In this document: in pieces, positions 44,034-60,615 of the stretch | How positions within the stretch are numbered: the first letter of the stretch is position 1 | Layout: every line of letters begins with the position of its first letter | The notes under the pieces: model-generated | Database searches by the model: none | Seen by the model: the letters and a program-made list of their open reading frames with translations, nothing else | Told to the model about the DNA's origin: nothing | Translations under genes and position numbers: made by a program | Origin: Alcanivorax jadensis T9 | GTDB taxonomy: Bacteria; Pseudomonadota; Gammaproteobacteria; Pseudomonadales; Alcanivoracaceae | Assembly: GCF_000756655.1 (NCBI RefSeq) | Contig: NZ_ARXU01000001.1 | Span: 372,001-436,000, forward strand | Reading direction: 5' to 3' | Length of the DNA stretch: 64,000 nt

Positions 44034-44040
44034 GAGTTAA

Positions 44041-45314: not shown

Positions 45315-45411
45315 AAAGCGGTCATATCCAGATACAAAAATGGCATTGCTGTCCACGGTGGGCAGCGCCTAAATAAACGACTCAATCATGCAGACTCAAA
45401 GGGATGCAGCC

Positions 45412-45588
45412 ATGAACCTCGACAGCCAGCAACCCGGCAAGAATTTCCACGGTGGCGCCATCATTGATGAGCAGGGACGGGAAGTTCCCATCACCGAAGC
45501 CATGATCCAGCAAGCATTTCAGCGCCTTGAAAAAAGCGGTCAGCCCCCTGCCCAGCCGTTCACGCCGGCGCAAAAAGCCGGCGCATGA
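45412..45588 (+). CDS. Short PA1571-type conserved protein
   Basis: 58 aa from the ATG at 45412, with AAAGGGA about 8 bases upstream; an in-frame ATG at 45388 has no such site. The core [23 protein letters not shown] is nearly invariant in a small family seen in Pseudomonas and relatives. The rest is Pro/Gln-rich. Function unknown. The 3' end overlaps the 3' end of pdxB by 29 bases (convergent). Confidence 0.72.
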
Positions 45589-46675
45589 TCGGCTGCCAGG
45601 GCGCAGCAATATCCCCCTGGTAATGCCAGTCATGGAGCTCGTGGCGCAACGGGTATTCCTTGCGCAGCCGGTCAAATGCCTTGCCAGGATCCGCTGAGGC
45701 AAGGCTGTCACCGAGCCGCCTGTGATCCTCAGATAACTGATACGCTATCTGCAACACCTTGAGCAAATCCTCCTCGCTCGCCACCGGCTGCGTGATGATC
45801 TCATTGCTTGCCGACACCGGCGCCGGTTGTGCGGTGACTCCAAGCCAGTCACAGAACGCTTGATAGAGCATCTGGGTCCCCTTGAGCTTGCCCTCAGCGC
45901 TATAGCCGGCAATATGCGGTGAGCCGAGCAGGACCTGCCGGAATAACGCGGGCGGCACCAGTGGCTCGGTTTCCCACACATCCAGAATGGTGGCCGGGCC
46001 CCGGCCCGCATCAAGCTCCGCCAGCAAAGCCTGATTGTCGATCACCGGCCCCCGGCAGGTATTGATCAGCATCTGCGACGAAGACAGCCGTGACAGACGG
46101 CCCGCATCCAGCAGATGGCGGGTGGCATGATTCCCACTGTCTGTCAGTGGCACATGCAAGCTGATCAGGTCCGCATCAAGCATGGCATCCAGCGGTTCCA
46201 GTTCGTAGGGGCCCTCATAGCCCTGTTCCTCCAGTGGCGGATCACAGGCTCGCACGGACATGCCCAGATCGGACAACCAGTAGGCCACCCGGTGCCCTAC
46301 ATTGCCCAGTCCCACCACCGCCGCCGTTGCCCCCAGCGGGGAACGATTGCCAGCCTGACAGAGCCGCAGCACTGCCTGCAGCACATATTCCGCCACGGCA
46401 CGGGCATTGCAGCCCGGCGCGTGGGCAAAGCGGATGCCCAGCTCCTGCAGGTAGCCGAGATCCACGTGATCCGTACCGATGGTAGCCGAGCCCACAAAAC
46501 GTACCCGGGATCCTGCCAGCAACCTGGCATCCACCCGGGTCACCGACCGCACCAGCAACACCTCGGCGTCACCCAGCTGCTGTCGGGTCAGGCTTCGACC
46601 ATCCACCCGGGTCACGGTGCCCATGGCGTCAAAGGCTTCCAGTCCCGGCATGTTGGCATCGGCAATGATCTGCAT
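45560..46675 (-). CDS. pdxB: Erythronate-4-phosphate dehydrogenase
   Basis: 371 aa. It oxidises 4-phosphoerythronate in the DXP-dependent vitamin B6 pathway. It belongs to the D-2-hydroxyacid dehydrogenases: [13 protein letters not shown], the NAD motif [19 protein letters not shown], and the catalytic Arg, Glu and His in [25 protein letters not shown] and [13 protein letters not shown]. The N-terminal start [15 protein letters not shown] and the extra C-terminal ~80-residue dimer domain distinguish PdxB from SerA. The upstream neighbour is a fructosamine-kinase-family gene ending 11 bases before it. Confidence 0.94.
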
Positions 46676-46686
46676 CGCGTTTCCTG

Positions 46687-47547
46687 TCAGCGGGTGTTCA
46701 GCAAGCGGCGGGCGGTGTCATCCACTGCCCGGGCATACTGACCACCGAAAAGATTGTAGTGATTCAGCCAGTGATACAGGTCGTACACGGGCCAGGCCTG
46801 ATATCGCAATGAAGCGGGACACTCCGACTGATAACCCTGATAGAACGCCGCCGGCACAGCGCCAAACAGATTCAACATGGCCAGATCCACCTGTGGGTCG
46901 CCATGATAACAGGCCGGATCGTAGAACACCGGCTCCCCGTTCACCTGCCCCAGATTGCCTTGCCACAGATCACCGTGGACCAGGGCACAAGGTGGCCGGG
47001 CAGGCAGCCAGCGGTCCAGCTGTTCAATCACCTGGCCGATGCGCTCCGCGGCCGCCGGCGGCAAGCCCTGCTGCCGGGCCCGCTGCAGTTGAGGCGCCAA
47101 CCTTTCGCTGGCAAAAAAGGCGCGCCAGTCACTATGGCCCGCGTTGCTTTGCAGGCTGGCACCGATAAAGTTGTTCGGGTGGCTTCCATAACCGGCTCGC
47201 CCCTGGATCCGGTGCAAACGGGCCAGCGCTGCCCCGGCAGCCATCCAGTCACGATTCCCCGACAGGGGTTCGATGGACAGATACTCCAGGATCAATACCC
47301 CGCCTGCGCTGGCACCGTAATAGTGGATAACCCTGGGCACCCTCAATCTTTCCGACAGTGCTTGCAGCCCGAGAGATTCCGCTTCAAGCAAATGCTGATT
47401 GCGATGCTGTTTAACGAAATAACGACTCGCTCCGTTATCAATAACCCCGCTAAGAGCCGTATCTCCGCCCGCCGCCGGAGTCAGGGTCCAATCACCCTCT
47501 AGGCCAGCCTGATTAAGGCTCTGCTGCAGCAGTACTGGTAATTTCAT
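46687..47547 (-). CDS. Fructosamine/ketosamine-3-kinase family protein
   Basis: 286 aa from the ATG at 47547. A TTG at 47556 may be the true start, since AAGGAG lies six bases before it but 15 before the ATG. The protein kinase-like fold has SRYFVKQHR (ATP-binding Lys), a central LEYLSIEPL, and the catalytic loop [16 protein letters not shown] with Asp and Asn, then [17 protein letters not shown] (metal Asp). These enzymes phosphorylate sugar adducts on proteins and so remove them. It precedes pdxB by 11 bases and is probably co-transcribed with it. Confidence 0.85.
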
Positions 47548-47624
47548 ATCAATCAAGTGAAACTCCTTGACTATAGAAGCCACCAAAATCGGCTCTCACG
47601 GCCAATAATGACTGACTGTTCCCC

Positions 47625-47653
47625 TTGATTTAAGGCATTCTTCTGATTACAAC
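47625..47653 (+). promoter_or_regulatory. Possible promoter of the envelope-machine operon
   Basis: TTGATT, 17 bases, TACAAC. Each box matches four of six consensus bases. It lies 60 bases before the first gene of the TPR/ExbBD cluster and is the best candidate in the gap. Confidence 0.3.
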
Positions 47654-47713
47654 TAGGCACTACGCCAGCCGGTTTACCGGCCAATAACAACAACACAAAG
47701 CGATCGCCACCCC

Positions 47714-48232
47714 ATGAAAGCACTCTTGCCCCTGTGCGGCGCCTTCCTTGTCGGCCTATGTACGGTCGCCAGCGGCGCCGATGACGATGGTCTGTCCGAG
47801 CAGATCCGCCAGCTGAAAAGCGAAGCCCTGGACCTGAACCGGGATCTCACCCTGCTCGAGCAGGAGCTCCTCTATGCCAGCCCGCAAACCAGCATCTTTG
47901 TCTCCGTGGATGTGGGCACTCCGATTCGCCTGGTCGATGTGAATCTAACCATTGATGGTGAACACGTGGGTTACCATTTTTACACTGACCAGGAATTCGA
48001 GGCCCTCACCAAGGGCGGCATCCAACGTCTCTACACCGGCAATCTGGCCAGTGGCCGCCATGTCATGGAAGCCACCATCACCGGCTATGATCCGCTAGGC
48101 AAGGATTACCAGAAAAGCACCAGTTATACCTTCACCAAGGGGGCCGGCAAAAAAATGGTGGAGATGCAGGTGGTGGACGACCTGAACAAGCAGCAGCACA
48201 AGTTTGAATTCCGTGAGTGGAATCAGCAATGA
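47714..48232 (+). CDS. Periplasmic protein, first gene of the TPR/ExbBD/AgmX cluster
   Basis: 172 aa. A signal peptide is seen (LLPLCGAFLVGLCTVASGA, cleavage near 22). A short coiled-coil (EQIRQLKSEALDLNRDLTLLEQELLYA) follows, then an immunoglobulin-like beta domain: IFVSVDVGTPIRLVDVNLTIDGEHV, RLYTGNLASGRHVMEATITGY. I do not recognise the family. It overlaps the next gene by four bases (ATGA), so it is translationally coupled to the machine and is likely a periplasmic component of it. Confidence 0.78.
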   Translation: MKALLPLCGAFLVGLCTVASGADDDGLSEQIRQLKSEALDLNRDLTLLEQELLYASPQTSIFVSVDVGTPIRLVDVNLTIDGEHVGYHFYTDQEFEALTKGGIQRLYTGNLASGRHVMEATITGYDPLGKDYQKSTSYTFTKGAGKKMVEMQVVDDLNKQQHKFEFREWNQQ

Positions 48233-50145
48233 CACAGGTGCGGCGAAAACGATGGCTGGTCGCGGCGTGCCTCGCCACCCTGTTGTCCCCCGCCCAGGCG
48301 GCAAAAGTCGAATTCTTCGATGATTTCAACGAAGGTCCGATACCTCTTGGCGAAGAGGAACACCGCTACCTGGCTTTTGGCGAGGTCATGTTCGACTACT
48401 ACCGTCATGCCAACTTTAATGCCATCAATACCCTGCTGGTCAATCAGGAGCAGGCGCTATTCAACGAAAATACCGATTACGCAGAGCTTTTACTTGGCGA
48501 CCTCTATGTGACCTATGGTCTGCCGGGCAAGGCAGAGGTCATCTTCAACCGCCTGCTGGAGAAGGACATTCTTAGCCGCACCCGGGCCCAGACCTGGCTG
48601 CACAAGGCGGCTCTGCATTATCGCGAAGGCAATCTGGCAGAAGCGGCCATGATTCTAGACGGCGACAATGTAGATGGGCTGGACTCGGCTGACGACGCCC
48701 GCCGACGTCTCATGCTGGCCAATATCTTCATGGCCGAGGAAGACTTCGCTGGTGCTCTGGATTATCTGCATTCTGTTCCCCTGAGCACGGATGAAGGCCG
48801 CTACGCCACTTACAACATGGGTGTGGCATTGATTCGCGGCGGTCATCGCGAACAGGGGGTTGCCCTGCTGAAATCTTTACTGGAAGCCGGCGGCAGTTCT
48901 GACCAGGCTCTCGCCCTGCGCGATCGGGCCGCTCTGGCCTCCGGTTTGACCGAGTTGAGAGAAGGAAAACTGCAAAGTGCCCGTGCAGACCTGCGCCAGG
49001 TTCGCAGTGACGGCCCCTTCTCCGAAGATGCCCTACTCGCCCTTGGACTGGCCAATTACCGGGCCGGGGAGGTAAAACGCGCCCTGCCACTGTGGCTGGA
49101 AGCGGTACGCCGCAACAGCAGCCACCCCTCTGTGCAGGAAGCGCTCATGCTAGCTCCCCGTGCCTACGAAGAGCTCGGTGGTCTGCCCCAGGCCCTAGCC
49201 GGCTATCAGTATGCCGCTTCGGAATACCGTCAGGCATTGAAAGACATCCAGCAGACCATCGACAACATCACCAAACCTGGTTGGTCGGAAGCCTTGTTAC
49301 CGGAAGACCGCAACCAGGCCGGCCTACTGCCAGCCAACAGTGGCGATCTCGCCCAGGGCAATGAACTCTCCTATCTCTACAAACTGTTTTCCAGCAACGC
49401 CTTTGCCCAACGTTTCGAGCACTACCGGCAGATTCACCAGATCAAGACCATGGTGGAGCAATGGCAGCAGTCACTGCCCGCGCTTCAGGAAACCTATCAA
49501 ATCCAGCAGCAAAGCCTGACCCGCAACCTTCCGCATGTCCGCGCTGAAATGACTCGTCACATGGGCCGGCAGGAGCAACTGGCCTTGGCTAGCGACAGGG
49601 TATCCTCAGCGATCCCCAATTTTGTCGACATGAGCAAACCGCAAGACGTGGCCACCCCCGAACAGGCCATCATGTGGAAGAAAGTGGATGCCATGGCTCG
49701 CCAGTTCGGCACCTTACCCGGCTCCAGTCATGCCAATGCCCTTCGCTTACGCAAGGTACGCGGCCTGTTGTTGTGGGATATTGCTCACCAGTCGATAGAA
49801 CAACGGCAAAAACAGGAGCAAGCTGCTACCCAATTACGAGAAGAAAGCAGTGTTCTGGGCGAACGAATTGCTGCCGTACAACAGCAGATACGGGATGCCA
49901 CCCTGCGCACCCGGGACGACCTGGGCCAGAGACTGGCCGGGCAGACCCAACGAATTGACAACATAAAGCGTCTTACCGAAGACACCCTTGAGGCTCTGGA
50001 AAAGAGCATGCAGGCCGATGCCCTTGCGCTTCTACTGGCCAACCAGCAGAAACTGGCAGACCAGTTGGCCGAGGCACATCTGGCCGTCGCCCGCCTGCAG
50101 GACACTTCGGCATCTGACGGCAGCAAACAGAGGACAGGATCGTGA
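48229..50145 (+). CDS. Periplasmic TPR and coiled-coil protein
   Basis: 638 aa from the ATG at 48229 within the ATGA overlap. The signal peptide is basic, then LVAACLATLLSPAQA. Residues ~60-330 carry degenerate TPR helices (GDLYVTYGLPGKAEVIFNRLLEKD, ALLALGLANYRAGEVKRALPLWL). Residues ~400-630 are long coiled-coils (IEQRQKQEQAATQLREESS, then LEKSMQADALALLL). No catalytic motif. It is a scaffold-like component that probably spans periplasmic distance. It ends in a four-base overlap with the next gene. Confidence 0.85.
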   Translation: MTQVRRKRWLVAACLATLLSPAQAAKVEFFDDFNEGPIPLGEEEHRYLAFGEVMFDYYRHANFNAINTLLVNQEQALFNENTDYAELLLGDLYVTYGLPGKAEVIFNRLLEKDILSRTRAQTWLHKAALHYREGNLAEAAMILDGDNVDGLDSADDARRRLMLANIFMAEEDFAGALDYLHSVPLSTDEGRYATYNMGVALIRGGHREQGVALLKSLLEAGGSSDQALALRDRAALASGLTELREGKLQSARADLRQVRSDGPFSEDALLALGLANYRAGEVKRALPLWLEAVRRNSSHPSVQEALMLAPRAYEELGGLPQALAGYQYAASEYRQALKDIQQTIDNITKPGWSEALLPEDRNQAGLLPANSGDLAQGNELSYLYKLFSSNAFAQRFEHYRQIHQIKTMVEQWQQSLPALQETYQIQQQSLTRNLPHVRAEMTRHMGRQEQLALASDRVSSAIPNFVDMSKPQDVATPEQAIMWKKVDAMARQFGTLPGSSHANALRLRKVRGLLLWDIAHQSIEQRQKQEQAATQLREESSVLGERIAAVQQQIRDATLRTRDDLGQRLAGQTQRIDNIKRLTEDTLEALEKSMQADALALLLANQQKLADQLAEAHLAVARLQDTSASDGSKQRTGS

Positions 50146-53087
50146 ACCGATTTCGCCTGCATGGGCTGGCAGCCGCAATCATTGCTCTTGGCGGCTGCGC
50201 GTCTGCACCGCAGAACGGCACACTGGAGCAACAGGCCCGCTTCGGGGGAACCACCCTGGCGGATCTGGAAGGCACCGACATCATCATTGAAGAGCAGCAA
50301 CTGGAAAGCGCCAGCACCCAGGATGCACTCAACAGCTACCGGCAGGCAGCTGAGCTGTTCGACGACCCGGAACGTCGAGCCAAAACGCTCCGTCGTATGG
50401 CGGACCTGGCCTTGTCTTCTGCCACCGAACAGGAAATGGGTATTGAAGACGCCGATAACCAGCGTCTCGAACAAAAAGTGGACAAACTCGTCTACGACAA
50501 TGCCATGGAGCAGGTGAACACTACAACGGATAACGAACGAAAACTGGCGCTGCTGGATCTGGCCGGCACCATGGCGCCATCTATGGCCGATAAGGACGTG
50601 AATTACAACACCGCCATCTCCCTTTATCAGGAACTGCTCAACAGCACCAGCGATCCGGATCAACGCGCGGAAGCCTATTACCTGTTGTCCAAGGCCTACG
50701 CCATGGATGGCAACCTGGAACAGGCCCGCGCCAGCCTTGACACCCTGGTGGAGCAGTACCCGAACAGCGAATGGGCCCTGGAATCCCAGTTCCGTCGGGG
50801 TGAAATGCTGTTCTCAGACGGCGATTATGACTATGCGGAAAAAGCCTACGCTGACGTCATCAATCGCGGCGCCAATAATGAATTCTACAGCCAGGCGCTC
50901 TACAAGCATGGCTGGAGTCATTACAAACTGGGCGACTACGAGCTGGCCCAAGCCAGCTTCTTTACCTTGCTGGACACGTTGAATGGCGCCAGTGAGCTTA
51001 ATGACGACACCAGCATGGAGAACAAACTGTTCGCCGATACCCAGCGCGTGGTGAGCCTGGCGTTCAGTAACCTGGATGGCCCGCAGTCGGTGAAAACGTG
51101 GTTTGCTCGCAACGGCAAGCGGGACTACGAACCGGAAATCTACCGCTCCCTGGGCCAGGTCTACCTGAGCCAGGAACGCTTCCGCGATGCAGCAGAAGCC
51201 TTCGACATGTTTGTCCAGGTGTACCCGAATTCCACCCTGGCGCCGGAATTCTCTAGTCTGCAGATCGACGCCTACCAGAAAGGTGGCTTCCCTACCCTGG
51301 TGTTGCCGGCCAAGGAAAAATTTATTCAGCATTATGGGATAAACAGCGATTACTGGGGCCGCCATCCCGATATTCGTGAAGAGTATGTCTCGCTGCTCAA
51401 GGGTCATATTCTCGATCTGGCCGAATACCACCATGTGCTGGCCCAGAAATCCGGCAACCCGGCGGATTACCGCAACCCGGCGCGCTGGTACCAGGAATAC
51501 CTGGATACCCCTCCAGCCAGCGAAGACCAGGGCAAGGTCAATCACCGCTATGCGGAAGTGCTCTACGCCGCCGAGGATTACCCGGCCGCTATCAGTGAGT
51601 TTGAACGTACGGCATATCAGTACCAGGGCTATGAAAAAGGCGGTGATGCCGCCTTCAATGCCCTGGTAGCCTACCAGCAGATTCTCGACAGCAACCCGGA
51701 CGAGGAACAGGCAAGCCGTTGGCGGACAAAGAAAATCGCCAGCGCCCAGCAATACGGACAACGCTTCCCGGAACACCCGGAAGTGCCCAATGTATTGCAT
51801 GACACCGCCGAGGACCAACTGGCGCTGGGTGACGTGGAAGGCGCCGTGAAAACCGCCGGCATTCTGGTCAATCGACAGCCCCCCCCTTCCGCCGAGCTGA
51901 TGCGCTATGGCTGGGCCACCATTGCCAACGGCGAATTCGATCTTGGCCGTTTCAAGGTGGCCGAAATGGCTTACGGCAAACTGCTCGATATGCAGATGCC
52001 CGCTGAACAACGCGCGCAGTACCGGGAGAAACTGGCGGTCAGCATTTACCGTCAGGCCGAGCAGCAGCAGGAACAGGGTAACCTGGATATCGCCGCTGCC
52101 ACCTTCCTGCGTGTTGGCCAGGCCGTGCCGGAAGCGGCGGTTCGCAAGAATGCGGAATTCGATGCCGCCACCTTGTTCATCAACCAGGGCCGCAGCACCG
52201 ATGCCATCCCGGTTCTGGAAGCCTTCCGTCAGCGCTACCCCGATGATCCGCTCACTGACACCATCCCTGACAAGCTGGCCATTGCCTACGAGAAACAGGG
52301 CAACTACACCGCCGCTGCCGGCGAGCTACAGTTGATTGCTGCCAATTACAAAGGCGACGATCCCGAGCTCTCCCGCCAGGCGTTGTGGAAAGCAGCGGAA
52401 ATGCAGGACCGGGCAGAGCAGCCCCAGGCCTCCATTGCCCTCTACCAGCAGTACCTTCAGGAGTGGCCGCAACCCTACGATTTCCGCTCTGAAGCGCAAT
52501 TCCGGCTGGTAGAGCTGAACCGGAAAACCGGCAACAGCGAGCGAGAAAACCATTGGCTGCAACAACTGGTAACCAGCTACCGCCAAGCCGGCGGTGAAGC
52601 TAATGACCGGGTTGCCTGGCTGGCGGCCTACGCCAGCTTTACCCTGGCAGAACCCCACTTCGCGGAATTCAAACGCATTGCCCTTACGCAACCGCTGAAA
52701 ACCTCCCTGGCCGCCAAGACCGGAGTCATGAAAAAAGCCCTGGTGGATTACCAGGCAGTCGCTGACATCGGCGTCGCGGAATATGCCACCGCCGCCAACT
52801 ACAAGATCGGCGAAATGTACCGGGTACTGGCCCGCGACCTGATTGCCTCCGAACGCCCGAACGGGCTGGATGAACTTGAGCTCGAAGAGTACACCATGCT
52901 GCTGGAAGACAAGGCCTTCCCCTACGAGGACCAGGCCATCGACATCCTTATCGCCAATACCAATCTGGTCACCGACGATATTTATGACCAGTGGGTAAAG
53001 AAAAGCTTTGGCGCGCTGGCAGAATTGATCCCCGGCCGTTATGCGAAGTTTGAACAGGTAGAAAGCTATGTGGACATCATTTACTGA
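50142..53087 (+). CDS. Large TPR lipoprotein
   Basis: 981 aa. GTG start at 50142 in a GTGA overlap. The lipoprotein signal is LAAAIIALGGC with acylated Cys19; the following residue is Ala, so outer-membrane sorting is expected. At least ten TPR-like units are visible, for example YYLLSKAYAMDGNLEQARASL, ALYKHGWSHYKLGDYELAQA, and AIAYEKQGNYTAAAGELQ near residues 185, 250 and 705. The length and organisation match the large TPR components found next to TolQ/TolR-like motors. It is the largest protein of the cluster and probably its outer-membrane anchor. Confidence 0.87.
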   Translation: MNRFRLHGLAAAIIALGGCASAPQNGTLEQQARFGGTTLADLEGTDIIIEEQQLESASTQDALNSYRQAAELFDDPERRAKTLRRMADLALSSATEQEMGIEDADNQRLEQKVDKLVYDNAMEQVNTTTDNERKLALLDLAGTMAPSMADKDVNYNTAISLYQELLNSTSDPDQRAEAYYLLSKAYAMDGNLEQARASLDTLVEQYPNSEWALESQFRRGEMLFSDGDYDYAEKAYADVINRGANNEFYSQALYKHGWSHYKLGDYELAQASFFTLLDTLNGASELNDDTSMENKLFADTQRVVSLAFSNLDGPQSVKTWFARNGKRDYEPEIYRSLGQVYLSQERFRDAAEAFDMFVQVYPNSTLAPEFSSLQIDAYQKGGFPTLVLPAKEKFIQHYGINSDYWGRHPDIREEYVSLLKGHILDLAEYHHVLAQKSGNPADYRNPARWYQEYLDTPPASEDQGKVNHRYAEVLYAAEDYPAAISEFERTAYQYQGYEKGGDAAFNALVAYQQILDSNPDEEQASRWRTKKIASAQQYGQRFPEHPEVPNVLHDTAEDQLALGDVEGAVKTAGILVNRQPPPSAELMRYGWATIANGEFDLGRFKVAEMAYGKLLDMQMPAEQRAQYREKLAVSIYRQAEQQQEQGNLDIAAATFLRVGQAVPEAAVRKNAEFDAATLFINQGRSTDAIPVLEAFRQRYPDDPLTDTIPDKLAIAYEKQGNYTAAAGELQLIAANYKGDDPELSRQALWKAAEMQDRAEQPQASIALYQQYLQEWPQPYDFRSEAQFRLVELNRKTGNSERENHWLQQLVTSYRQAGGEANDRVAWLAAYASFTLAEPHFAEFKRIALTQPLKTSLAAKTGVMKKALVDYQAVADIGVAEYATAANYKIGEMYRVLARDLIASERPNGLDELELEEYTMLLEDKAFPYEDQAIDILIANTNLVTDDIYDQWVKKSFGALAELIPGRYAKFEQVESYVDIIY

Positions 53088-53820
53088 TCGCGGCCGCCTG
53101 GGCGCGGCCACCGCACTGCTCGCTGCCCTGGCGCTGTCAGGCTGTGCCAGCAAGGGCGGCATCGGGCTGGAGGGCTCCACCGAGGGCGGCACCAGCAAAT
53201 ACGAGCAACAGAAAGACGGTGGCGCTGCCGCCGACAGTGACGCCATTCATATTCCGCCGGTACCCCATGATCCCAAGGTGGAGAAGGTCGCCGAGCAGGC
53301 CATGGCGGAATATGCCCGTGCACTGCAGGCTCGAATGGCAGACAAAGACAAGCAAGCCCTGGTAATGTTCCGCTCCCTGGGTGAGCGTTTCCCGCAACTT
53401 TCCGGGCCTCAGCTCAATGTGGGTCTGATCTACATGGAACAGGAAGACTACGCCAAGGCACAACAGGCCTTCGAGCAATCCCTGGCCATCAACGATGCCA
53501 ACCCCTATGCCCACAACGGCCTTGGCCTGGCATTGCGTGAGCAGGGTCAGTTCGATGATGCCCGTATCCATTACGAGCGAGCGCTGGTTCTGGACCCGAA
53601 GTATGCTCGCGCTCATTTCAATCTGGCCGTTCTCGCCGAGCTCTACCTACAGGATCTGCACCTGGCACTGGAACATTTCAAGGCCTACCAGAACCTGCAG
53701 AAATTGCCGGATGAGAACGTGGCCAACTGGATTGTGGACCTGCAGCGCAGAGCCCCGGACGCCCCCAGCCAGCCAGTGGCGGACCAGAACGCCGGCAACA
53801 AAAATGGAGAGTTGAACTGA
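53068..53820 (+). CDS. TPR lipoprotein
   Basis: 250 aa, overlapping the preceding gene by 20 bases. The lipobox is ALALSGC (acylated Cys26) with Ala next, again pointing to the outer membrane. Residues ~75-215 hold three canonical TPRs: LNVGLIYMEQEDYAKAQQAFEQ, AHNGLGLALREQGQFDDARIHYERAL and AHFNLAVLAELYLQDLHLALEHF. The tail is Pro/Asn-rich. It resembles AglT-like TPR lipoproteins of Myxococcus in organisation; homology cannot be shown by eye. Confidence 0.88.
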   Translation: MWTSFTDRGRLGAATALLAALALSGCASKGGIGLEGSTEGGTSKYEQQKDGGAAADSDAIHIPPVPHDPKVEKVAEQAMAEYARALQARMADKDKQALVMFRSLGERFPQLSGPQLNVGLIYMEQEDYAKAQQAFEQSLAINDANPYAHNGLGLALREQGQFDDARIHYERALVLDPKYARAHFNLAVLAELYLQDLHLALEHFKAYQNLQKLPDENVANWIVDLQRRAPDAPSQPVADQNAGNKNGELN

Positions 53821-54107
53821 TGCGCCCTTTACTCGTGATCGCCGCTCTTGTGTGCGCCACAGTCAGCCACGCCGAAGGCGATGGCCAGGAAGCGTCCACC
53901 AATGTGATCGGCACCCAGGAAGCCCCCACGGTACTCAACGTGGTGCCCTGGAAGGACCGGGAGGTGAAGCTGGAGAAAAAAGACCCCACCTCTTCCCTGC
54001 TCAACAGGGTACTCGAACCCCTGGATCAGGAGGTGTTGATGCGGGAAATCGAGTATCACCAGCTTCTTAATCAGGAGCCGGATAACGATGATCTGTTCCT
54101 GAAATAG
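53820..54107 (+). CDS. Small exported protein of the TPR/ExbBD cluster
   Basis: 95 aa starting in a TGATG overlap with the previous gene. A signal peptide (LLVIAALVCATVSHA) leads to a short acidic/charged mature chain with no domain signature: NVVPWKDREVKLEKKDPTSSLLNRVLEPLDQEVL. It is too small to be an enzyme and likely a linker or modulator in the machine. The next gene starts 140 bases later, in the only sizeable gap of the cluster; I saw no promoter or terminator of note in that gap. Confidence 0.75.
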   Translation: MRPLLVIAALVCATVSHAEGDGQEASTNVIGTQEAPTVLNVVPWKDREVKLEKKDPTSSLLNRVLEPLDQEVLMREIEYHQLLNQEPDNDDLFLK

Positions 54108-54247
54108 CACATCAACCGATATCACTAGATGCGCCCGAGCCTTTTTTCTGATAAAAATTGGCGCTTGGGGGAAGGTGTAGCAGCCAGCAAGACGGCTTAG
54201 CTGCATGCGAAACAATAACACTAACAGGAATACCGCAGGAGAAGTCC

Positions 54248-54937
54248 ATGCCAACCACCACCGCCGCCCAGAATTCTGGCGTTGTCGAGACCGCTATTAC
54301 CTTCATTCAGGATGGCGGTTTCTTCATGTACCCCATTCTTGTCGTCCTGGCCCTGGGCCTTGCCCTGTCCCTGGAACGTATCATTTACCTTCAGGCCACC
54401 AAGGCAAAGAACCAGAAAACCTGGAAAGACGTCTATCCCCTGATCGCCAAGGGCCAGTTTCGCCAGGCGCTGGATGTGGTCAGCAGCAGTAACACCGGCA
54501 TGGCCAAAGTCATCGGCTACGGCCTGGAGCGCGCCAAGACAGCCAAGCGCCACGATGATATCGAACTGGCCATGGAAGAAGGCCTGATGGAAATCATCCC
54601 GCGTCTGGAGGCCCGGACTCCTTACATCGGCACCTTTGCCAACATTGCCACCCTGCTCGGCCTGCTGGGTACCATCCTCGGCCTGATCAGCGCCTTTACC
54701 GCAGTCGCCAGTGCTGACCCGGCACAGAAGGCCGATCTGCTTTCCGCCTCTATTTCCGTTGCCATGAATACCACCGCCTTCGGTCTGATTGCTGCCATTC
54801 CCATGCTGCTAGCCTTCGCCTTTATCAACGCCATGGCCGGCAAACTGGTGGATAGCATGGAAATGGCCTCGGTGAAATTCGTTAACGTCTTCCGCCAGGT
54901 TTCTGCCCAGCAAGAGCGCAAGAACGACGGCCAATAA
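54248..54937 (+). CDS. ExbB/TolQ/MotA-type proton channel subunit
   Basis: 229 aa from the ATG at 54248 (AGGAGA upstream). One membrane helix near residues 25-47 (FMYPILVVLALGLALSLERII), a large cytoplasmic loop (~50-135), then two helices (~140-165 and ~180-210). The MotA_TolQ_ExbB core YIGTFANIATLLGLLGTILGLISAF is fully present, as is NTTAFGLIAAIPMLLAFAF. Such proteins form a pentamer around two ExbD-type helices and conduct protons. The next two genes encode two ExbDs. Confidence 0.93.
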   Translation: MPTTTAAQNSGVVETAITFIQDGGFFMYPILVVLALGLALSLERIIYLQATKAKNQKTWKDVYPLIAKGQFRQALDVVSSSNTGMAKVIGYGLERAKTAKRHDDIELAMEEGLMEIIPRLEARTPYIGTFANIATLLGLLGTILGLISAFTAVASADPAQKADLLSASISVAMNTTAFGLIAAIPMLLAFAFINAMAGKLVDSMEMASVKFVNVFRQVSAQQERKNDGQ

Positions 54938-54980
54938 GCCGTAATTTCTTGTTTTCGCCAATCTGGTGTAAGGATCTGGT

Positions 54981-55511
54981 ATGCGATTTCGCAGACGACG
55001 TTCGCGCGACACCGATGTGGAACTGAACATCACTGCCTTTCTGAATCTGATGGTAGTGCTGATTCCTTTTCTGCTCATCAACGCGGTCTTCGCGCAGGTC
55101 TCTATCCTGCAGTTGAACTTGCCCGCGGTGAATGAGAGCAGTCCACCTTCGGAAGACGACGAAAAAGACAAACTGGTACTGGAAGTACTGATTTACGGTA
55201 ACCGCTATGAAGTAGTGGACCGCAACACCAGTGCCGTACTGAAAATTGTGGACAACAAGGGCGAAGATCATGACAGCGCCGCCCTGCATGATTATCTGGT
55301 GACCCTGAAAGAAAAGTTTCCCGAGGAAACCGCCATTACCCTGCTCTGTGAGGACGACACCCCTTATGAGGTGATGATCCACACCATGGACGCCGTGCGT
55401 CTGTACAACACAGAGATCAATGGCCAGACCATCAAGAAAGAGCTGTTCCCAAGCATCAGCATTGGTTCAGCGCCACAGGATCAGACTGGCAGTAACGGAG
55501 GTGACGCGTGA
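54981..55511 (+). CDS. ExbD/TolR-like protein 1 (lacks the channel Asp)
   Basis: 176 aa. A basic N-terminus precedes a single membrane helix at ~16-38 (ITAFLNLMVVLIPFLLINAVF), then a periplasmic domain of ~135 residues. The ExbD signature has an Asp in the helix (usually P-L/F-I-D-V-M). Here the aligned residue is Asn22 (AFLNLMVV). The periplasmic part has LVLEVLIYGNRYEV and the C-terminal helix YEVMIHTMDAVR of the family. It overlaps ExbD 2 by four bases. With ExbD 2 it would make a heterodimeric rotor in which only one helix carries the proton-binding acid. Confidence 0.88.
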   Translation: MRFRRRRSRDTDVELNITAFLNLMVVLIPFLLINAVFAQVSILQLNLPAVNESSPPSEDDEKDKLVLEVLIYGNRYEVVDRNTSAVLKIVDNKGEDHDSAALHDYLVTLKEKFPEETAITLLCEDDTPYEVMIHTMDAVRLYNTEINGQTIKKELFPSISIGSAPQDQTGSNGGDA

Positions 55512-56008
55512 AGAAATCCGCCCGCGCCCGCCGAATGGCCCGTCACCATGGCCGCCACAAGATGGTTGCCACACTGAACCTGACTTCACTGATGGATATC
55601 TTCACTATCCTGCTGATCTTCCTGCTGGTGAATAACAACAACGCCGCCAAACTACCGGAAGACCAAGATATTCAGCTACCGGAATCTACCGCACAGGAGC
55701 TGCCCAACGATGTCCTGATCATCCAGGTCAGCGCCACTAATGTGATTATCGATGGCCGTAAAATTGCCGATACTCAGGCAGTTAAAGTACAGGAAGAACG
55801 TACCGTCGATGCCCTGGTAGAAGAGCTGAAATTCCGTGCTTCCCGCGCTCTGGCGGTAAACCCGGAAGACGAGCGGGAAGTGATGATTCAGGCCGATCGG
55901 GATGTACCCTATGCCGTCATCAAGAAACTGATGCGCAGTTGCATGGAGACGCCCTACACCAAGGTCGCCTTTGCTGTCCTGAAAGTGGCAGAGGAGGAGT
56001 CTGAATGA
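55508..56008 (+). CDS. ExbD/TolR-like protein 2 (canonical channel Asp)
   Basis: 166 aa with GTG start at 55508. The basic N-terminus is followed by LNLTSLMDIFTILLIFLLV, in which Asp30 occupies the conserved proton-binding place of ExbD. The periplasmic domain has VLIIQVSATNVIIDGRKIAD, EVMIQADRDVPYAVIKKLMRSC. It is coupled by short overlaps to both ExbD 1 and the AgmX-like gene. Confidence 0.9.
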   Translation: MKKSARARRMARHHGRHKMVATLNLTSLMDIFTILLIFLLVNNNNAAKLPEDQDIQLPESTAQELPNDVLIIQVSATNVIIDGRKIADTQAVKVQEERTVDALVEELKFRASRALAVNPEDEREVMIQADRDVPYAVIKKLMRSCMETPYTKVAFAVLKVAEEESE

Positions 56009-56982
56009 CGCAGAACAATAACAACAAGCTGCGCATACTCATTGATGGCTCCCTGCCCTGGGACAAACAAGAGGGGGAAGACCGGCGCCTTTACGGCATC
56101 GTTATCATTCTGCTGATTCTGGCACTGCTGATGATGATCCTGGTGGAATCGGTCACCATTGAAAAACCTGACCCGCGGGAACAACAGGAAATCCCTGAAC
56201 GATTGGCACAACTGGTTCTCGAAAAACAAAAAGAGCCACCACCGCCTGAGCCCGAACCGGAGCCTGAACCCGAGGAGGAAGAACCGGAGGAAAAACCCGA
56301 GCCTGAAGAGCCGAAACCGGAACCCAAGCCAGAGCCTGAACCGAAACCGCGGCCTGCTGAAGTTCAACGGGAAGAGGCACGAGAAAAAGCCCAGGCACGA
56401 CTCGAAGAAGATCTGGGAGACTCCCTGGCCGGCTTGGATGATATTGGCCCATTGGTAGATTCAGGCGACAGTCTGCGCACCGGTGGTGATAGCGCCGCCA
56501 AGGCAGAACGTGATCTGATCGGCAAGCGTGCCGGCACAGGATCCGGCGGTGTAGCAACTGCCAGGGCATCCAGCGGCGGTGGCGGTGGCGGCACCTTGTC
56601 TGCAGGGACTGTGGGTGGCGGCAAGGTGGACAGCAAGATCGCCGAATCCGGTCAGGCAGCCAGCACAACGCGCAAGGGCAGCGATGGCAAGAGCCGTCGT
56701 ACCCAGGAGCAACTGCGCCGTGTATTCGACCGCTACGCTGGTAAATTCAACAGCCAGTACCAGCGTGCTCTGCGCAGCAACCCTGCCCTGCAAGGCACAG
56801 TGGTCCTCTATCTAGTTATCGCACCCAACGGCGATGTACAGGATGTGAAAGTGAAATCCAGCCAGCTGGGCGACAGCCAACTGGAAAGACGTATCACGCT
56901 GATTGCCAAAGGCATGAACTTTGGCGCTATGAATGTGGAAACCTGGAAGGGAGACTACAAGTTGAACTTCTTCCCCAACTGA
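56005..56982 (+). CDS. TonB-like energy transducer with AgmX/PglI-type C-terminal domain
   Basis: 325 aa. Residues ~30-51 form one membrane helix (YGIVIILLILALLMMILVES). Residues ~77-117 are a Pro-Glu-Lys-rich stretch (PEPEPEPEPE, then EKPEPEEPKPEPKPEPEPK), which spans the periplasm as in TonB. A Ser/Gly-rich spacer follows. The C-terminal ~95 residues (RRVFDRYAGKFNSQYQRALR, then VVLYLVIAPNGDVQDVKVKS and LERRITLIAKGMNFGAM) match the AgmX/PglI domain, a TonB-C relative. It is the last gene of the unit, closed by a strong terminator. Confidence 0.9.
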   Translation: MTQNNNNKLRILIDGSLPWDKQEGEDRRLYGIVIILLILALLMMILVESVTIEKPDPREQQEIPERLAQLVLEKQKEPPPPEPEPEPEPEEEEPEEKPEPEEPKPEPKPEPEPKPRPAEVQREEAREKAQARLEEDLGDSLAGLDDIGPLVDSGDSLRTGGDSAAKAERDLIGKRAGTGSGGVATARASSGGGGGGTLSAGTVGGGKVDSKIAESGQAASTTRKGSDGKSRRTQEQLRRVFDRYAGKFNSQYQRALRSNPALQGTVVLYLVIAPNGDVQDVKVKSSQLGDSQLERRITLIAKGMNFGAMNVETWKGDYKLNFFPN

Positions 56983-56996
56983 TCGTGATGGTCAGC

Positions 56997-57035
56997 CACA
57001 AAAAAGCCCGGCTCAAAAGGCCGGGCTTTTTTGTG
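56997..57035 (+). terminator. Rho-independent terminator of the envelope-machine operon
   Basis: CACAAAAAAGCCCGGC pairs perfectly with GCCGGGCTTTTTTGTG around TCAAAAG, 14 bases after the stop. A textbook bidirectional terminator. Confidence 0.93.
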
Positions 57036-57066
57036 ATGAGGACAACCTCGTCTTGGCTGTTAATGC

Positions 57067-57147
57067 GTAGGGTGCACTGAGCCTCAGGCGAACTGCACCG
57101 ATTCGGCGTTTGATGGTGCAGTTCGCCTTCGGCTCAGTGCACCCTAC
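57067..57147. repeat. Dispersed palindromic element, GTGCAGTTCGCC type (copy 2)
   Basis: GTAGGGTGCACTGAGCC pairs with GGCTCAGTGCACCCTAC at the ends. AGGCGAACTGCACC pairs with GGTGCAGTTCGCCT inside. It is very similar to the copy at 41976-42060 in arms and loop. It sits between the operon terminator and the convergent thioesterase gene. Confidence 0.85.
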
Positions 57148-57198
57148 CCTATCCTCCTCCCATTGGAGTGATTCCAGAGGGCAAAACGCGTTTGCCAG

Positions 57199-57630
57199 TC
57201 AGACGAGCTTTTCCAGCGCTTCCCTTAACGGCGCCGGGATCGATACCGGCCGGCCGCTTTGACGATTCACAAAAACATGCACCACAAAGCCCGTCGCCTT
57301 CGCCGGCCCTTCAGCGCCAAACAATGCCAGGCCGTAGCGCACAGAACTGTTGCCCAGCTTGTCCACCTTCATACCCACAGACAACGAGTCAGGGTACGCA
57401 GCGGCTTCCAGATAATCACAACCGGAGCTGACCACATAGGCGATATGCTCACCATCATGAATATCCAGTCCCCCCTGCTCGATCAGATAACGGTTGATGG
57501 TGGAATCAAAATAGCTGTAATAAACCACGTTATTTATATGGCCGTAGATGTCGTTATCGCTCCAGCGGCTATCCACCGGACAAAGATACCCATACTCATC
57601 ACGATCAGGCCGGTTGCCCTTCTCTGCCAT
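57199..57630 (-). CDS. Hot-dog fold acyl-CoA thioesterase (4HBT type)
   Basis: 143 aa from the ATG at 57630. Its A is also the last base of the alcohol dehydrogenase stop codon (TGATG), so the genes are coupled. The 4-hydroxybenzoyl-CoA-thioesterase signature is DSRWSDNDIYGHINNVVYYSYFD, with the catalytic Asp followed by Y-G-H-x-N-N. Later segments VGMKVDKLGNSSVRYGLALF and TGFVVHVFVNRQSGRPVSIP complete the fold. It cleaves an acyl-CoA thioester; the substrate is unknown. Confidence 0.88.
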   Translation of the reverse strand: MAEKGNRPDRDEYGYLCPVDSRWSDNDIYGHINNVVYYSYFDSTINRYLIEQGGLDIHDGEHIAYVVSSGCDYLEAAAYPDSLSVGMKVDKLGNSSVRYGLALFGAEGPAKATGFVVHVFVNRQSGRPVSIPAPLREALEKLV

Positions 57631-58787
57631 CAATACACCGCCTTGTAGATCGCCAGCGCATCGGCCTCGGAGACTTCCCGTGGGTTGTTGATCAGCAAAC
57701 GCTGCTGAAGCATGGCATCCGCTGCAAGAGTTTCCAGGCTGTCCTCGCTAACCCCGGCATCGCGCAGGCGTACCGGCAATCCAACCGCATTGATCAGGGA
57801 CTCCAGTGCCGCAATCAGTGCCTCGGCACCACCGCTGGCATCCGTGAAACGCTGATCACTGAGAATCGGCGCCAGCTCTGCATACAGGGGGGCGGCTACT
57901 GCAGCATTGAATTTCAGCACCTCCGGCATTACCAGCGAGTTGCTCAAGCCGTGGGGAATATGAAAATGCCCACCCAGCGGATAGGCCAACGCATGCACGG
58001 CGGCCACCGGAGCATTGGCAAACGCCTGGCCGGCCATCATTGCTCCCAACAAACAGGCTTCACGGGCCGCCAGGTTGCTGCCATCGTTTACAGCGGTCTC
58101 CAGGTTCCCGCCCAACAGGCGCAAGGCCTCTCGGGCCAGCATATCCGAATAGGGATTTTTCTTGTGGGCACTGGTGTACGCCTCAATGGCATGAACCATG
58201 GCATCCACACCGGTGGCAGCAGTCACATGGGCCGGCAGGCCAAGGGTCAGCTCTGCATCCAGCACGGCAAGATCCGGCAGCAGGGAGGGTGCCACCACAC
58301 CGGCCTTGGTGGTGGCCCCGGTAGTGACAATGGCGACAGGGGTCACTTCCGAGCCGGTCCCCGCCGTGGTCGGCACCTGTATCAACGGCAACCTTGGCCC
58401 CGTGGCCAAGCCCACCCCGTAGATATCCGACAGTTGCTGACTGGCATCCGGATGCGCCAGCAATGCCACCAGCTTGGCCACATCCATGGAGGAGCCGCCA
58501 CCGAATCCAATCACCAGGTCAGCTTTCGCCTCCCTCGCCTGCCGTGCAGCATCCAGCACAACAGTGTCTGCCGGATCCGCACTAACCTGATCAAAAATGG
58601 CCAGCGGCATACCGGCTTGACGAAAGCTGTCTTCCACCGGTCCAAGCAGTGGCGTGCTGCGAATACCCGGATCCGTGACCAGCAGTACCCGACTGGCGCC
58701 CCGCTCCTGACACAGCCCCGGCAGACGGCCGGCAGCGCCCGCCTCTACCAGCACACGATGGGTGGTTGCGAATTCGAAACCCGGCAT
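57630..58787 (-). CDS. Iron-containing alcohol dehydrogenase (type III)
   Basis: 385 aa, the usual length. NAD-binding segments are LVIGFGGGSSMDVAKLVALL and IQVPTTAGTGSEVTPVAIV. The metal set is an Asp and His in GVDAMVHAIEAY (Asp near 194, His near 198), and two His in AAVHALAYPLGGHFHIPHGLSNS. It would oxidise a primary alcohol or reduce an aldehyde with NAD(H). It is the first gene of a two-gene unit with the thioesterase and lies downstream, on the same strand, of the Tat/GMC pair. Confidence 0.92.
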   Translation of the reverse strand: MPGFEFATTHRVLVEAGAAGRLPGLCQERGASRVLLVTDPGIRSTPLLGPVEDSFRQAGMPLAIFDQVSADPADTVVLDAARQAREAKADLVIGFGGGSSMDVAKLVALLAHPDASQQLSDIYGVGLATGPRLPLIQVPTTAGTGSEVTPVAIVTTGATTKAGVVAPSLLPDLAVLDAELTLGLPAHVTAATGVDAMVHAIEAYTSAHKKNPYSDMLAREALRLLGGNLETAVNDGSNLAAREACLLGAMMAGQAFANAPVAAVHALAYPLGGHFHIPHGLSNSLVMPEVLKFNAAVAAPLYAELAPILSDQRFTDASGGAEALIAALESLINAVGLPVRLRDAGVSEDSLETLAADAMLQQRLLINNPREVSEADALAIYKAVY

Positions 58788-58939
58788 GATGACTCTCCTG
58801 AAATGACGTGCCGATTAGGGCATCAATGCTAGCACAGGCGGGGATGGGGAATGACGCCGTGGGAGCCGCGATTTACGTCGCGGCGGGATGCAGACAAGGT
58901 GCCGGAATTCCTCGGCTTTAGCTCAAGCCCCGGAATGCA

Positions 58940-59005
58940 AAGAGCGAGCTGAACGGAACGAGGTCATGCCGTCAGGCATGCCCTTGTTCCCTACAACTCG
59001 CTCTT
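58940..59005. repeat. Long imperfect hairpin downstream of the GMC gene
   Basis: AAGAGCGAG pairs with CTCGCTCTT at the base. GGAACGAGGTCATGCC pairs, with two mismatches, with GGCATGCCCTTGTTCC at the top. It starts 12 bases beyond the GMC stop codon. No T run follows on the minus strand. The remaining gap to the alcohol dehydrogenase start holds only a short GTGGGAGCCGCGATTTACGTCGCGG REP-like half, and nothing else that I can see. Confidence 0.65.
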
Positions 59006-59016
59006 CGTAACAGCGG

Positions 59017-60615
59017 TTAACCGATAAAGTAATTGTGCGCGTTCTCGTTGATCTGGTCGCTCACATACTGGGCCAGCGCCTGCACGGTCCACTGTATCGG
59101 AGCCGTCATGGGCTCGGGGATCAGGCTTGAATCTGCCACGAACAGACCTGCTGTGCCATACACCTGCCCTGTGGGAGCCACCACCGCCTGGTAGGGGTCA
59201 GCGCCCATACGGCAGGTGCCATGGGGGCTGAAGCTGTTGGCCCTGAAGGTGTACATGCCCTTGAGGCCGAAGTCCACCTTGTCCAGGGTTTCATCCAGCG
59301 CAAAGACCGAATCCACTTCCAGATTCTGGAAGGTGGGCATGTAGACTTTTTCCGCGCCGCCGGAGAAGAAGATACGCGCCGCCAGAGCAGCAGACGCCTT
59401 CATATTGTTGAACTCTTCCCGGTTCGGGTTCCAGTGAATGGTCTTGTCACCGCTATAGGCATCCCCGGACCATTCCACGTATCCCCTGCCCTGGTCCGTG
59501 CTGAAGGCATTCACCCCGGCGTAGTACTTGTAGTTCTTCATGAAGTCGATGTGGGCCTTGCCCGCCTTCATGTCACCCTGAGCCAGCAGCGATTCCGGCT
59601 CTGCCAACCCTGAGAAAATGGTAAAGCCATCGGTGCGGGTGAATTCATCCACCTGCACCCCGACCAGCGCCCCCCGGAAACCATACAAGGGCTCCTTGAA
59701 TTTACCCAGCACCTGGGTGAAGGGCTGAATCGACAGGTTACGACCCAGCTGACCGCTGCGATCTTCTATCTGACTACGCTGCATGATCAGCGGTGTATGA
59801 ATGGCGCCAGCGGCCAGTACCACCATATCCGCATCCACCTGCATGTCGGCTACGTGGGCGCCGCTGTCCGGGTCGGTAATACGCGCTTCCACGCCGCGGG
59901 CCCGACCATCACGGGTCAGCACACGTACCACTTCGGTATCCGAGAAGATCCGTGCGCCATGGGCGGCGGCCCAGGGCAAATGCGTCACCAGAGAGCTCAT
60001 TTTCCGGTCAGAAGGACACCCCGCCAGGCAGTGCCCGGTCAGCGCGCACTGCTTCACGTTGCGCTGGGCCGGTTTCCAGGAAAACTGCATTTTCTCGCAG
60101 CCCTGAATCACCTTGTGGGCACAGGCGTTGATCTCGTGGGCCTCGTTGATATGAATCTGCAACTGGTCTGCCACGCCATCCAGGTAGGGCCGGAATTTTT
60201 CTGCCGACAGATTCTCCAGGCCATACTGGCTCGCCCAGCCATCCAGCACCGCATCATCGGGCTCTTCCATCACGCAGGCACCGATCACCGTAGAGCCACC
60301 GACACAGGCGCCCTGGACAAAAATGATATCCGCAGTGGTATTTACCTGGCCGACCTGATCCTGATAGATCTTGGTCATGGTATCACCCAGGTGTTCGGTA
60401 AACTGGGAGCTGGGATAATAGCGGCCGGATTCCAGCACCAATACATCGCGACCGGCTTTGGCCATTTCATAGGCCACAATGGAACCGGCAGCACCAGAGC
60501 CCACTACCACCACATCGGTTTTCAGGGTGAAGCGTTTGCCCAGGTTTGCATCCAGGGCCACATCTTTTGCCTCGGTGACGGGGACACCGTCACGGGCGAC
60601 ACGTACAAAAGCCAT
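59017..60615 (-). CDS. GMC-family FAD dehydrogenase, partner of the upstream Tat subunit (pair 1)
   Basis: 532 aa, starting 11 bases after the Tat-subunit stop codon. The FAD motif is VVVGSGAAGSIVAYEMAKAG (residues ~36-55), then VQGACVGGSTVIGACVMEEP. A three-Cys segment CALTGHCLAGCPSDRK stands where the cholesterol-oxidase-like protein at 899-2479 has a 4-Cys motif. The C-terminal motif SPHGTCRMGADP with the following VADSSLIPEPMTAPIQWTVQALA is the GMC active-site end. By family context it oxidises an alcohol or sugar, with the Tat subunit as chaperone or export partner. No signal peptide of its own, so it may be exported piggy-back. Confidence 0.9.
   Translation of the reverse strand: MAFVRVARDGVPVTEAKDVALDANLGKRFTLKTDVVVVGSGAAGSIVAYEMAKAGRDVLVLESGRYYPSSQFTEHLGDTMTKIYQDQVGQVNTTADIIFVQGACVGGSTVIGACVMEEPDDAVLDGWASQYGLENLSAEKFRPYLDGVADQLQIHINEAHEINACAHKVIQGCEKMQFSWKPAQRNVKQCALTGHCLAGCPSDRKMSSLVTHLPWAAAHGARIFSDTEVVRVLTRDGRARGVEARITDPDSGAHVADMQVDADMVVLAAGAIHTPLIMQRSQIEDRSGQLGRNLSIQPFTQVLGKFKEPLYGFRGALVGVQVDEFTRTDGFTIFSGLAEPESLLAQGDMKAGKAHIDFMKNYKYYAGVNAFSTDQGRGYVEWSGDAYSGDKTIHWNPNREEFNNMKASAALAARIFFSGGAEKVYMPTFQNLEVDSVFALDETLDKVDFGLKGMYTFRANSFSPHGTCRMGADPYQAVVAPTGQVYGTAGLFVADSSLIPEPMTAPIQWTVQALAQYVSDQINENAHNYFIG

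Follow-up and report, generated by a model that had tools for sequence, protein, structure and literature searches.

The nine-gene operon and its products

A 64,000-nucleotide stretch of the Alcanivorax jadensis T9 genome (hereafter the window) carries, at positions 47714-56982, nine open reading frames (ORFs) arranged head to tail on the + strand, whose products include tetratricopeptide repeat (TPR) proteins, an ExbB-type channel, two ExbD proteins and a TonB-like transducer. The initial annotation of this DNA had recognized a nine-gene unit with TPR proteins, a MotA/TolQ-type channel, two ExbDs and an AgmX/PglI tail, and Pfam and NCBIfam matches were found for each of these elements; by Pfam, the nine products showed TPR repeats, a MotA_ExbB domain, two ExbD domains and, below threshold, TonB_C. 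Neighboring genes were said to overlap by 1-20 bases nearly throughout, which holds for six of the eight junctions; spacers precede the ExbB gene (140 nt) and the first ExbD gene (43 nt). The terminator described as strong in the annotation proved weaker: the candidate hairpin at 57010-57027 on the + strand, matched on the − strand too, has a 5-bp stem and is near chance level, with 17 sites in the terminator scan vs 11.4 expected by chance. No promoter-like site was retrieved by our scan just upstream of the operon.

The channel gene (54248-54937, +) encodes an ExbB/TolQ/AglR-type protein (MotA_ExbB, 6.8e-26); we used its ATG start, and a TTG lies upstream in the same frame at 54158. It is followed by ExbD1, of the AglQ type (54981-55511, +; ExbD match, 3.6e-12), and ExbD2, of the AglS type (55508-56008, +; 4.2e-19). 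The last gene (56005-56982, +) encodes the TonB-like transducer, whose C-terminal AgmX/PglI domain (56701-56970) matches NF033768 at 1.9e-15 (56.8 bits, above the NCBIfam cut-off of 40). The transducer also matches the GltG equivalog model at 4.9e-13, its 48.5 bits being below the cut-off of 650, and has no Pfam match to an FHA domain. By its position, this protein corresponds to a GltG without the FHA domain rather than to AgmX/GltJ. The window's genome holds one over-cut-off match to the AgmX/PglI tail, that of the operon itself, and one below cut-off on contig 16.

The remaining five products were compared with those of Myxococcus genomes, which were reached via spore protein S and from which the motors and the glt/nfs-like clusters were taken. 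T981 (50142-53087, +) is a 981-aa TPR lipoprotein of the GltD type with the lipobox LGGC, whose Cys19 is invariant in 12 aligned sequences (the window's included), and T250 (53068-53820, +) is a 250-aa TPR lipoprotein of the GltE type with the lipobox LSGC. In the Myxococcus clusters, the hidden Markov model (HMM) of the T981 family matched the six long ORFs at the GltD position with E values of 8e-62 to 8e-86, and that of the T250 family matched GltE-position ORFs at 2e-24 to 5e-37. In two Myxococcus genomes, ORFs beside the over-cut-off GltE matched the T981-family HMM at 1.4e-64 and 7.5e-63 and the T250-family HMM at 2.2e-29 and 1.5e-31. T250 itself matched the NCBIfam gliding_GltE model at 4.1e-11 (42.5 bits, below the cut-off of 225). 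The best scores of both TPR-family HMMs fell in a third Myxococcus cluster, which also contains a GltF-like ORF. Directly upstream of the X172-like gene of this third cluster is an ORF with a weak small-GTPase match (L055:2926-3591 and L060:17695-18546), reminiscent of MglA. Signal peptides and lipoboxes of the operon products were read by eye; pattern-based lipobox counts (71/92 loci for T981 and 73/85 for T250) depend on guessed starts and were not taken as proof.

The exported TPR/coiled-coil protein T642 (48217-50145, +; alternative ATG start at 48229) fits GltC in position and size. Its family HMM found the GltC-position ORF of the Myxococcus nfs-like cluster at E = 2.9e-12, which partly reflects generic TPR similarity, other TPR ORFs being matched down to 4e-7. 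The first gene of the operon, X172 (47714-48232, +), encodes an exported protein with a predicted coiled-coil-like helix (24-55) followed by beta strands; it matched no Pfam or NCBIfam family, and a single-sequence model of only fair quality (predicted local distance difference test score of 64) had no PDB match at E≤1e-3. PDB sequence searches with X172 and with the TonB-like protein gave nothing useful. X172 is present in 85 of the 92 class loci (defined below), with a diverged homologue in the third Myxococcus cluster (E = 1.6e-5) and matches at E≤0.01 in seven of nine loci from the phylum of Myxococcus. The small exported protein S95 (53820-54107, +), found in 87/92 loci, is encoded at the GltF position, is similar to GltF in size and shares with it the short motif G-x4-P-x3-Y. 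Homology of S95 to GltF could not be demonstrated statistically: hmmsearch values were weak (0.028 with the third-cluster homologue and 2.9 with GltF, with the database size set to 1000), and the profile-profile match spans the signal peptide only.

With the T981 sequence as query, 29 of 37 genomes (the window's genome and its relatives) had a match, 26 of them with E<1e-40 and three weakly over a TPR stretch. In an even draw of 369 genomes from the class, a 12-row T981 alignment matched 88 genomes at 1e-30, representing 67 of 272 genera, and in the phylum of M. xanthus it matched 117/146 genomes. Further loci were fetched for a subset of the class matches (71 loci) and from the Myxococcus phylum (nine loci, L132-L140), so that the class set comprises 92 loci: the window, L011-L030 and L061-L131. 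The full set of nine genes, on one strand and in the same order, is kept in 68 of these 92 loci, and because of this the conserved arrangement is more than chance. By presence alone the count is 69, with one GltC-type match there really being a GltE-type ORF.

Among the 24 incomplete loci, L093 has no genuine match of the GltC type, eight are cut off by a contig end as judged by eye (L023, L027, L028, L067, L100, L102, L111 and L121), six lack X172, T642 or both, and nine have neither motor genes nor a contig end (L085, L089, L090, L095, L115, L123, L125, L127 and L128). Eight of the genomes with these nine motor-less TPR clusters hold a second match to the 981-aa protein. By analogy with Glt and Nfs, which share AglRQS, two structural sets might share one motor. 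In L086, L091, L101 and L113 the GltC-like and GltD-like matches lie within one long ORF, a possible fusion.

A probable Agl-type motor with two unlike ExbD subunits

The phylogenetic trees of the motor genes included 30 of the 92 loci, the ExbD/TolR tree containing 79 sequences. AglRQS was identified among the Myxococcus motors by its first ExbD, whose length (162 residues) and Asp28 agree with what has been published for AglQ. The ExbB of the operon groups with AglR and the channel of a second Myxococcus motor (support 100/99). ExbD1 of the 30 loci groups with AglQ and with B1 of the second motor (99/94), and ExbD2 groups with AglS and its second-motor counterpart, also with 99/94. Outside the AglQ/AglS groups (100/98) fall TolR and ExbD of E. 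coli, three copies from the window's own genome and six other Myxococcus copies. Long branches (AglQ and the own-genome copies on contig 16) were flagged by the tree program, and details within groups are unsure. When the window ExbB was compared with three Myxococcus genomes, two motors in each were matched at 3e-33 to 5e-32, and the next matches were at 2e-15 to 3e-14.

Because the trees place the motor genes with their M. xanthus counterparts AglR, AglQ and AglS, and apart from TolQR and ExbBD of E. coli and the other Exb genes of this genome, we conclude with high confidence that the operon specifies a force machine of the Agl/Glt type and not a siderophore TonB system. The initial annotation had proposed a kinship with the Myxococcus Agl machinery, to be abandoned should the motor proteins group with classical ExbBD systems or the TPR genes prove unlinked to them. 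We found ExbB and both ExbDs, which this check covered, on the Agl side, with the TPR genes conserved alongside. The kinship is thus upheld by the trees and by the GltD and GltE HMMs, and departs from the original description in the transducer, which by position corresponds to GltG and not to AgmX/GltJ.

The operon is of a known type, fitting the gammaproteobacterial stand-alone "core complex" (Group B: gltD, E, G, C and aglR, Q, S) of Luciano et al. 2011 (PMC3169522), whose function those authors left open. It shares with that complex its single-region, stand-alone organization and the same seven gene types (GltC by position), and differs in having nine conserved genes as compared to the seven plus one extra of the paper, X172 and S95 both being common. 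Its motor subunits are orthologues of those of M. xanthus Agl-Glt, as judged from the trees and the order of the genes, and it also shares with that machinery GltD-, GltE- and GltG-like parts and, by position, GltC- and GltF-like proteins; unlike Agl-Glt, it has an AglQ-type subunit without Asp28, a GltG-like protein without an FHA match, and one operon instead of three clusters.

The lack of Asp28 in the AglQ type is shared by nearly all of these loci. At the position of AglQ Asp28, which in ExbD/TolR proteins is the Asp that carries the proton, ExbD1 has Asn in 75 of 77 loci (N22 in the window, codon 55044-55046), the exceptions being L114 with Asp and L122 with Ser, while the proton-Asp position of ExbD2 is Asp in 76/76 loci (D30, codon 55595-55597). 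Many of the loci are related, and these figures are counts and not independent events. Asp is found in all 15 other aligned sequences: two from E. coli, three from the window's genome, six Exb/Tol copies of Myxococcus, AglQ, AglS and the two of the second motor. Among the nine loci from the Myxococcus phylum, two have motor genes adjoining the cluster, one with Asp in both subunits and one with the Asn/Asp pair. The pore threonines of ExbB are kept, T142 (54671-54673) being Thr in 78/78 loci and T176 (54773-54775) in 77/78, with one gap. In M. xanthus, the AglQ substitution D28N was reported to abolish proton conductance, paralyse gliding and block sporulation (PMC3858216). Both AglQ and AglS of that organism carry the Asp, and how the two pair was described in a 2022 review as not yet known (PMC9389320). 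No published report of an Asn in an AglQ-type subunit was found in the literature searched, where most subscription papers were out of reach, and neither this Asn nor the barrel/redox module described below appears in the parts of PMC3169522 available to us.

Since only the AglS-type subunit has a protonatable Asp and the AglQ-type subunit a fixed Asn, the axle of this motor probably pairs the two types in an asymmetric, obligate heterodimer in which a single proton site works. An alternative arrangement, compatible with any of the functions weighed below, is that an ExbD2 homodimer conducts the protons and ExbD1 sits beyond the pentamer as a scaffold or regulator. The Asn/Asp split between the two subunits would suit it, but ExbD1 retains its ExbD match, a conserved transmembrane segment and a place between ExbB and ExbD2, and AglQ, with its D28, is essential in M. 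xanthus (PMC3858216); we consider this arrangement rather unlikely. The natural Asp-to-Asn change in one of the axle subunits offers a direct test of the number of proton sites required by a 5:2-type motor, and of whether AglQ and AglS types heterodimerise.

Other exbD/tolR genes of the window's genome lie on contigs 5, 10 and 16. The contig-16 set (L159:4035-6238) consists of an ExbB-like gene, two ExbD matches and a TonB-like gene, the last with the sub-cut-off AgmX/PglI match mentioned above. About 17 kb from this ExbB-like set, on the same contig, is a group of DUF3570, DUF4266 and TlpA-like genes (L192).

A TIGR04565 barrel and a flavinylation-type redox module

Several families recur near X172, mostly upstream of it, each in 6 to 22 of the 92 loci: an HZS-alpha-like/PD40 lipoprotein, an SH3 plus barrel protein, a TIGR04565 barrel, a TlpA-like protein, DUF4266, DUF3570 and ApbE. 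TIGR04565 scores over its cut-off in 56 of the 369 genomes, which span 31 family labels of the sample (hand count), and every one of the 56 carries the core complex, as marked by the GltD-type gene (Fisher 1e-43, relatedness not corrected). In 40 of these genomes the barrel gene is no more than 25 kb away from the 981-aa gene (no more than 10 kb in 28), and in 16 the two lie on different contigs. Among the window's genome and its near relatives, the core complex is present in 23/23 barrel genomes. DUF3570 occurs in all 56 barrel genomes, and barrel and DUF4266 lie within about 2 kb of each other in 51 of them, as judged by eye (the exceptions are G056, G095, G106, G232 and G304). The core complex is present in 73 of 95 genomes with DUF3570, and in 69 of 90 with DUF4266 (21.5 expected).

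In the window's genome, the module lies on contig 2 (G000) at ~40.0-46.0 kb (L193:9034-15043, − strand) as one run of DUF3570, DUF4266, TlpA-like, TIGR04565 barrel, SH3-barrel and HZS-alpha-like lipoprotein genes. These proteins are 54-88% identical to the best copies elsewhere. No ApbE gene was seen in this contig-2 stretch. The order of the genes is that found directly upstream of a sister operon in same-genus genomes (L017 and L018), this being a second, divergent operon that is present in eight same-genus genomes and missing from the window's genome. Divergent ORFs with PSD2 and Laminin_G matches adjoin the contig-2 module.

In Myxococcus, an ORF upstream of the GltC-position ORF in the cluster that we take as nfs, an assignment that rests on gene order, belongs to the TIGR04565 family as well (190 bits). 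For this reason the TIGR04565 barrel is plausibly the NfsA/B or GltA/B component at the outer-membrane end. GltA/B and NfsA/B were assigned by Luciano et al. 2011 (PMC3169522) to a group restricted to Myxococcales and Bdellovibrionales. The cluster taken as nfs has a gene order similar to that seen here (barrel, C, D, E, F, G), with TIGR04565 common to both; unlike Agl-Nfs, the machine studied here has its motor encoded within the operon and its barrels apart.

The redox part of the module resembles the clusters of ApbE, DUF3570, DUF4266 and thioredoxin-like genes described by Meheust et al. 2021 (PMC8238504) in its DUF3570, DUF4266 and TlpA-like genes, and in some loci also ApbE, but here TIGR04565 barrels and an HZS-alpha-like lipoprotein accompany these genes, whose distribution follows that of the core complex. 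In that study, one DUF3570 protein was experimentally shown to be a flavinylation substrate of ApbE, and the DUF3570/DUF4266/thioredoxin-like cluster was presented as a redox system of uncertain role; its main text mentions neither ExbB, TPR nor gliding. No link between the core complex and a TIGR04565/flavinylation module was found in the literature searched. The TIGR04565 barrels and the flavinylation module would represent a first, testable partner for the core complex.

Several of our observations weigh against such a partnership. Among the 88 core-complex genomes, 32 have no TIGR04565 over the cut-off (16 have neither it nor DUF4266), and one genome (G003) holds both operon types with no TIGR04565 barrel; the barrel is therefore not a universal partner. 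At E≤0.001, TIGR04565 is found in 111/369 genomes, some of them lacking the core complex, so that the clean nesting is seen at the curated cut-off only, and 21 of the 90 DUF4266 genomes have no core complex, DUF3570/DUF4266 clusters occurring there too. The co-occurrence figures for core and barrel are, moreover, uncorrected for phylogeny. Finally, the same-genus copies of the module that are linked in cis adjoin the sister operon (L017, L018 and L022) and not an operon of the window type; the set in this genus may serve the sister operon, the window-type operon or both.

A possible force transducer of the outer-membrane surface

Taken together with the motor phylogeny, the module suggests a tentative reading, which we place marginally short of an even chance: the operon would encode a machine that transmits force to a surface complex of the outer membrane, with the barrel/redox module as its partner. 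The odds are put slightly below even because the same-genus module copies adjoin the sister operon. According to this proposal, the AglR-type ExbB, one AglQ-type and one AglS-type ExbD would form a proton-driven inner-membrane motor, and this motor would move the GltG-type TonB-like protein. As in the Agl-Glt model, the AgmX/PglI domain would then engage a periplasmic and outer-membrane scaffold consisting of X172, the GltC-like TPR protein, the GltD- and GltE-like lipoproteins and the GltF-like protein. The outer-membrane end would be the contig-2 barrel pair (TIGR04565 and SH3-barrel), encoded with the TlpA-like, DUF4266, DUF3570 and HZS-alpha-like proteins and presumed to contact the scaffold. 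Such a machine could pull, assemble or move a surface complex with redox activity, which does not in itself imply gliding.

It is also possible, if doubtful, that the machine transports a polymer or an adhesin at the surface, as Agl-Nfs does with the spore-coat polymer and Agl-Glt with adhesion complexes, and that the redox module is a companion and not the cargo. Wartel et al. 2013 reported that Agl-Nfs rotates the spore-coat polymer, and called the core a possible basal transport machinery; in our set, the TonB-like gene is immediately followed by a large secreted ORF in 16 of 92 loci (clusters c7 and c13). The window operon, however, has no giant ORF encoded beside it, its genome has no homologue at E≤1e-20 of the OmpA-domain protein that accompanies the giants (the giant itself was not searched for), and no polysaccharide genes were recognized among the recurrent neighbors, of which part were scanned. 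A role as a gliding motor, or another surface-motility motor, would be in line with the orthology of the motor, GltD and GltE to the M. xanthus gliding machinery, but the AglQ-type subunit bears the very residue that paralyses M. xanthus when introduced there (D28N, PMC3858216). We regard a motility motor in this organism as highly improbable, and gliding as the ordinary role of this machine as unlikely.

Least probable of all, to the point of being nearly negligible, is a TonB-ExbBD uptake system or a duplicate of Tol-Pal. These systems share with the operon the MotA_ExbB, ExbD and TonB_C domains and the transducer design, and the sequence that stands next to the AglR group in the tree, outside it, is an ExbB of the same genome, on contig 5 (94/80). 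Both the ExbB and the ExbD trees nevertheless reject classical TonB/Tol membership, placing the motor in clades separate from ExbBD and TolQR of E. coli, and other exbD/tolR genes are present on contigs 5, 10 and 16. The operon also differs from the classical systems in its two unlike ExbDs, and no TolB or Pal domain was found by Pfam among the nine products. The SxxxH motif was found in 0/76 loci in the automatically picked hydrophobic segment of the transducer, a pick that missed the transmembrane segment in at least two loci (L016 and L068). As a distinguishing mark of the window transducer we dropped the absent motif, given that the GltG-like and NfsG-like Myxococcus copies lack it too; the third-cluster copy carries SLLLH. 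The initial annotation had considered ordinary TonB uptake unlikely and noted no TonB receptor nearby. The trees and the SxxxH scan agree with the former, and the latter holds for the ORFs of 44000-60500, none of which is receptor-sized (judged by size, with no receptor family searched).

Returning to the force-transducer reading, these data may hint at a large and mostly unstudied class of proton motors that use a one-site asymmetric axle to assemble or move a flavin-containing redox apparatus of the outer membrane (TIGR04565 barrels, DUF3570, DUF4266 and TlpA-like proteins), with a sister class serving giant repeat-rich surface proteins, a broader view that we hold to be speculative and somewhat doubtful. 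If true, it would tie mechanical trans-envelope work to extracytosolic electron transfer, and a one-site axle would work although the M. xanthus data would predict a dead motor. Roughly one in four of the class genomes sampled (the 88 of 369 mentioned above) carries the machine.

The 16 loci with a large secreted ORF after the TonB-like gene represent a sister operon type. We followed 15 of them (L172-L185 and L191), which were chosen for the large ORF and so do not represent a rate. A giant ORF of 1,634-5,022 codons, stop to stop, is seen in 13, and in the other two it is cut by the end of the fetched sequence. A second long ORF follows the giant in 13/15 loci, and the six complete ones have 1,718-1,826 codons and a common C-terminal end, GYNF[ST]DFSDDLT. 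Three giants were scanned for domains, and DUF11-type repeats were strong in two, along with SdrD- or isopeptide-type domains, and weak in one. Pfam scans of two of the second ORFs showed a pair of OmpA stretches in each, and NCBIfam gave OmpA-like matches for a third. In five other loci that were followed further, other genes come after the TonB-like gene. A protein of 1,036-1,283 codons is encoded after the TonB-like gene in L186-L188 and L082, and the copy scanned, that of L082, has cyclic-nucleotide-binding and rhodanese domains.

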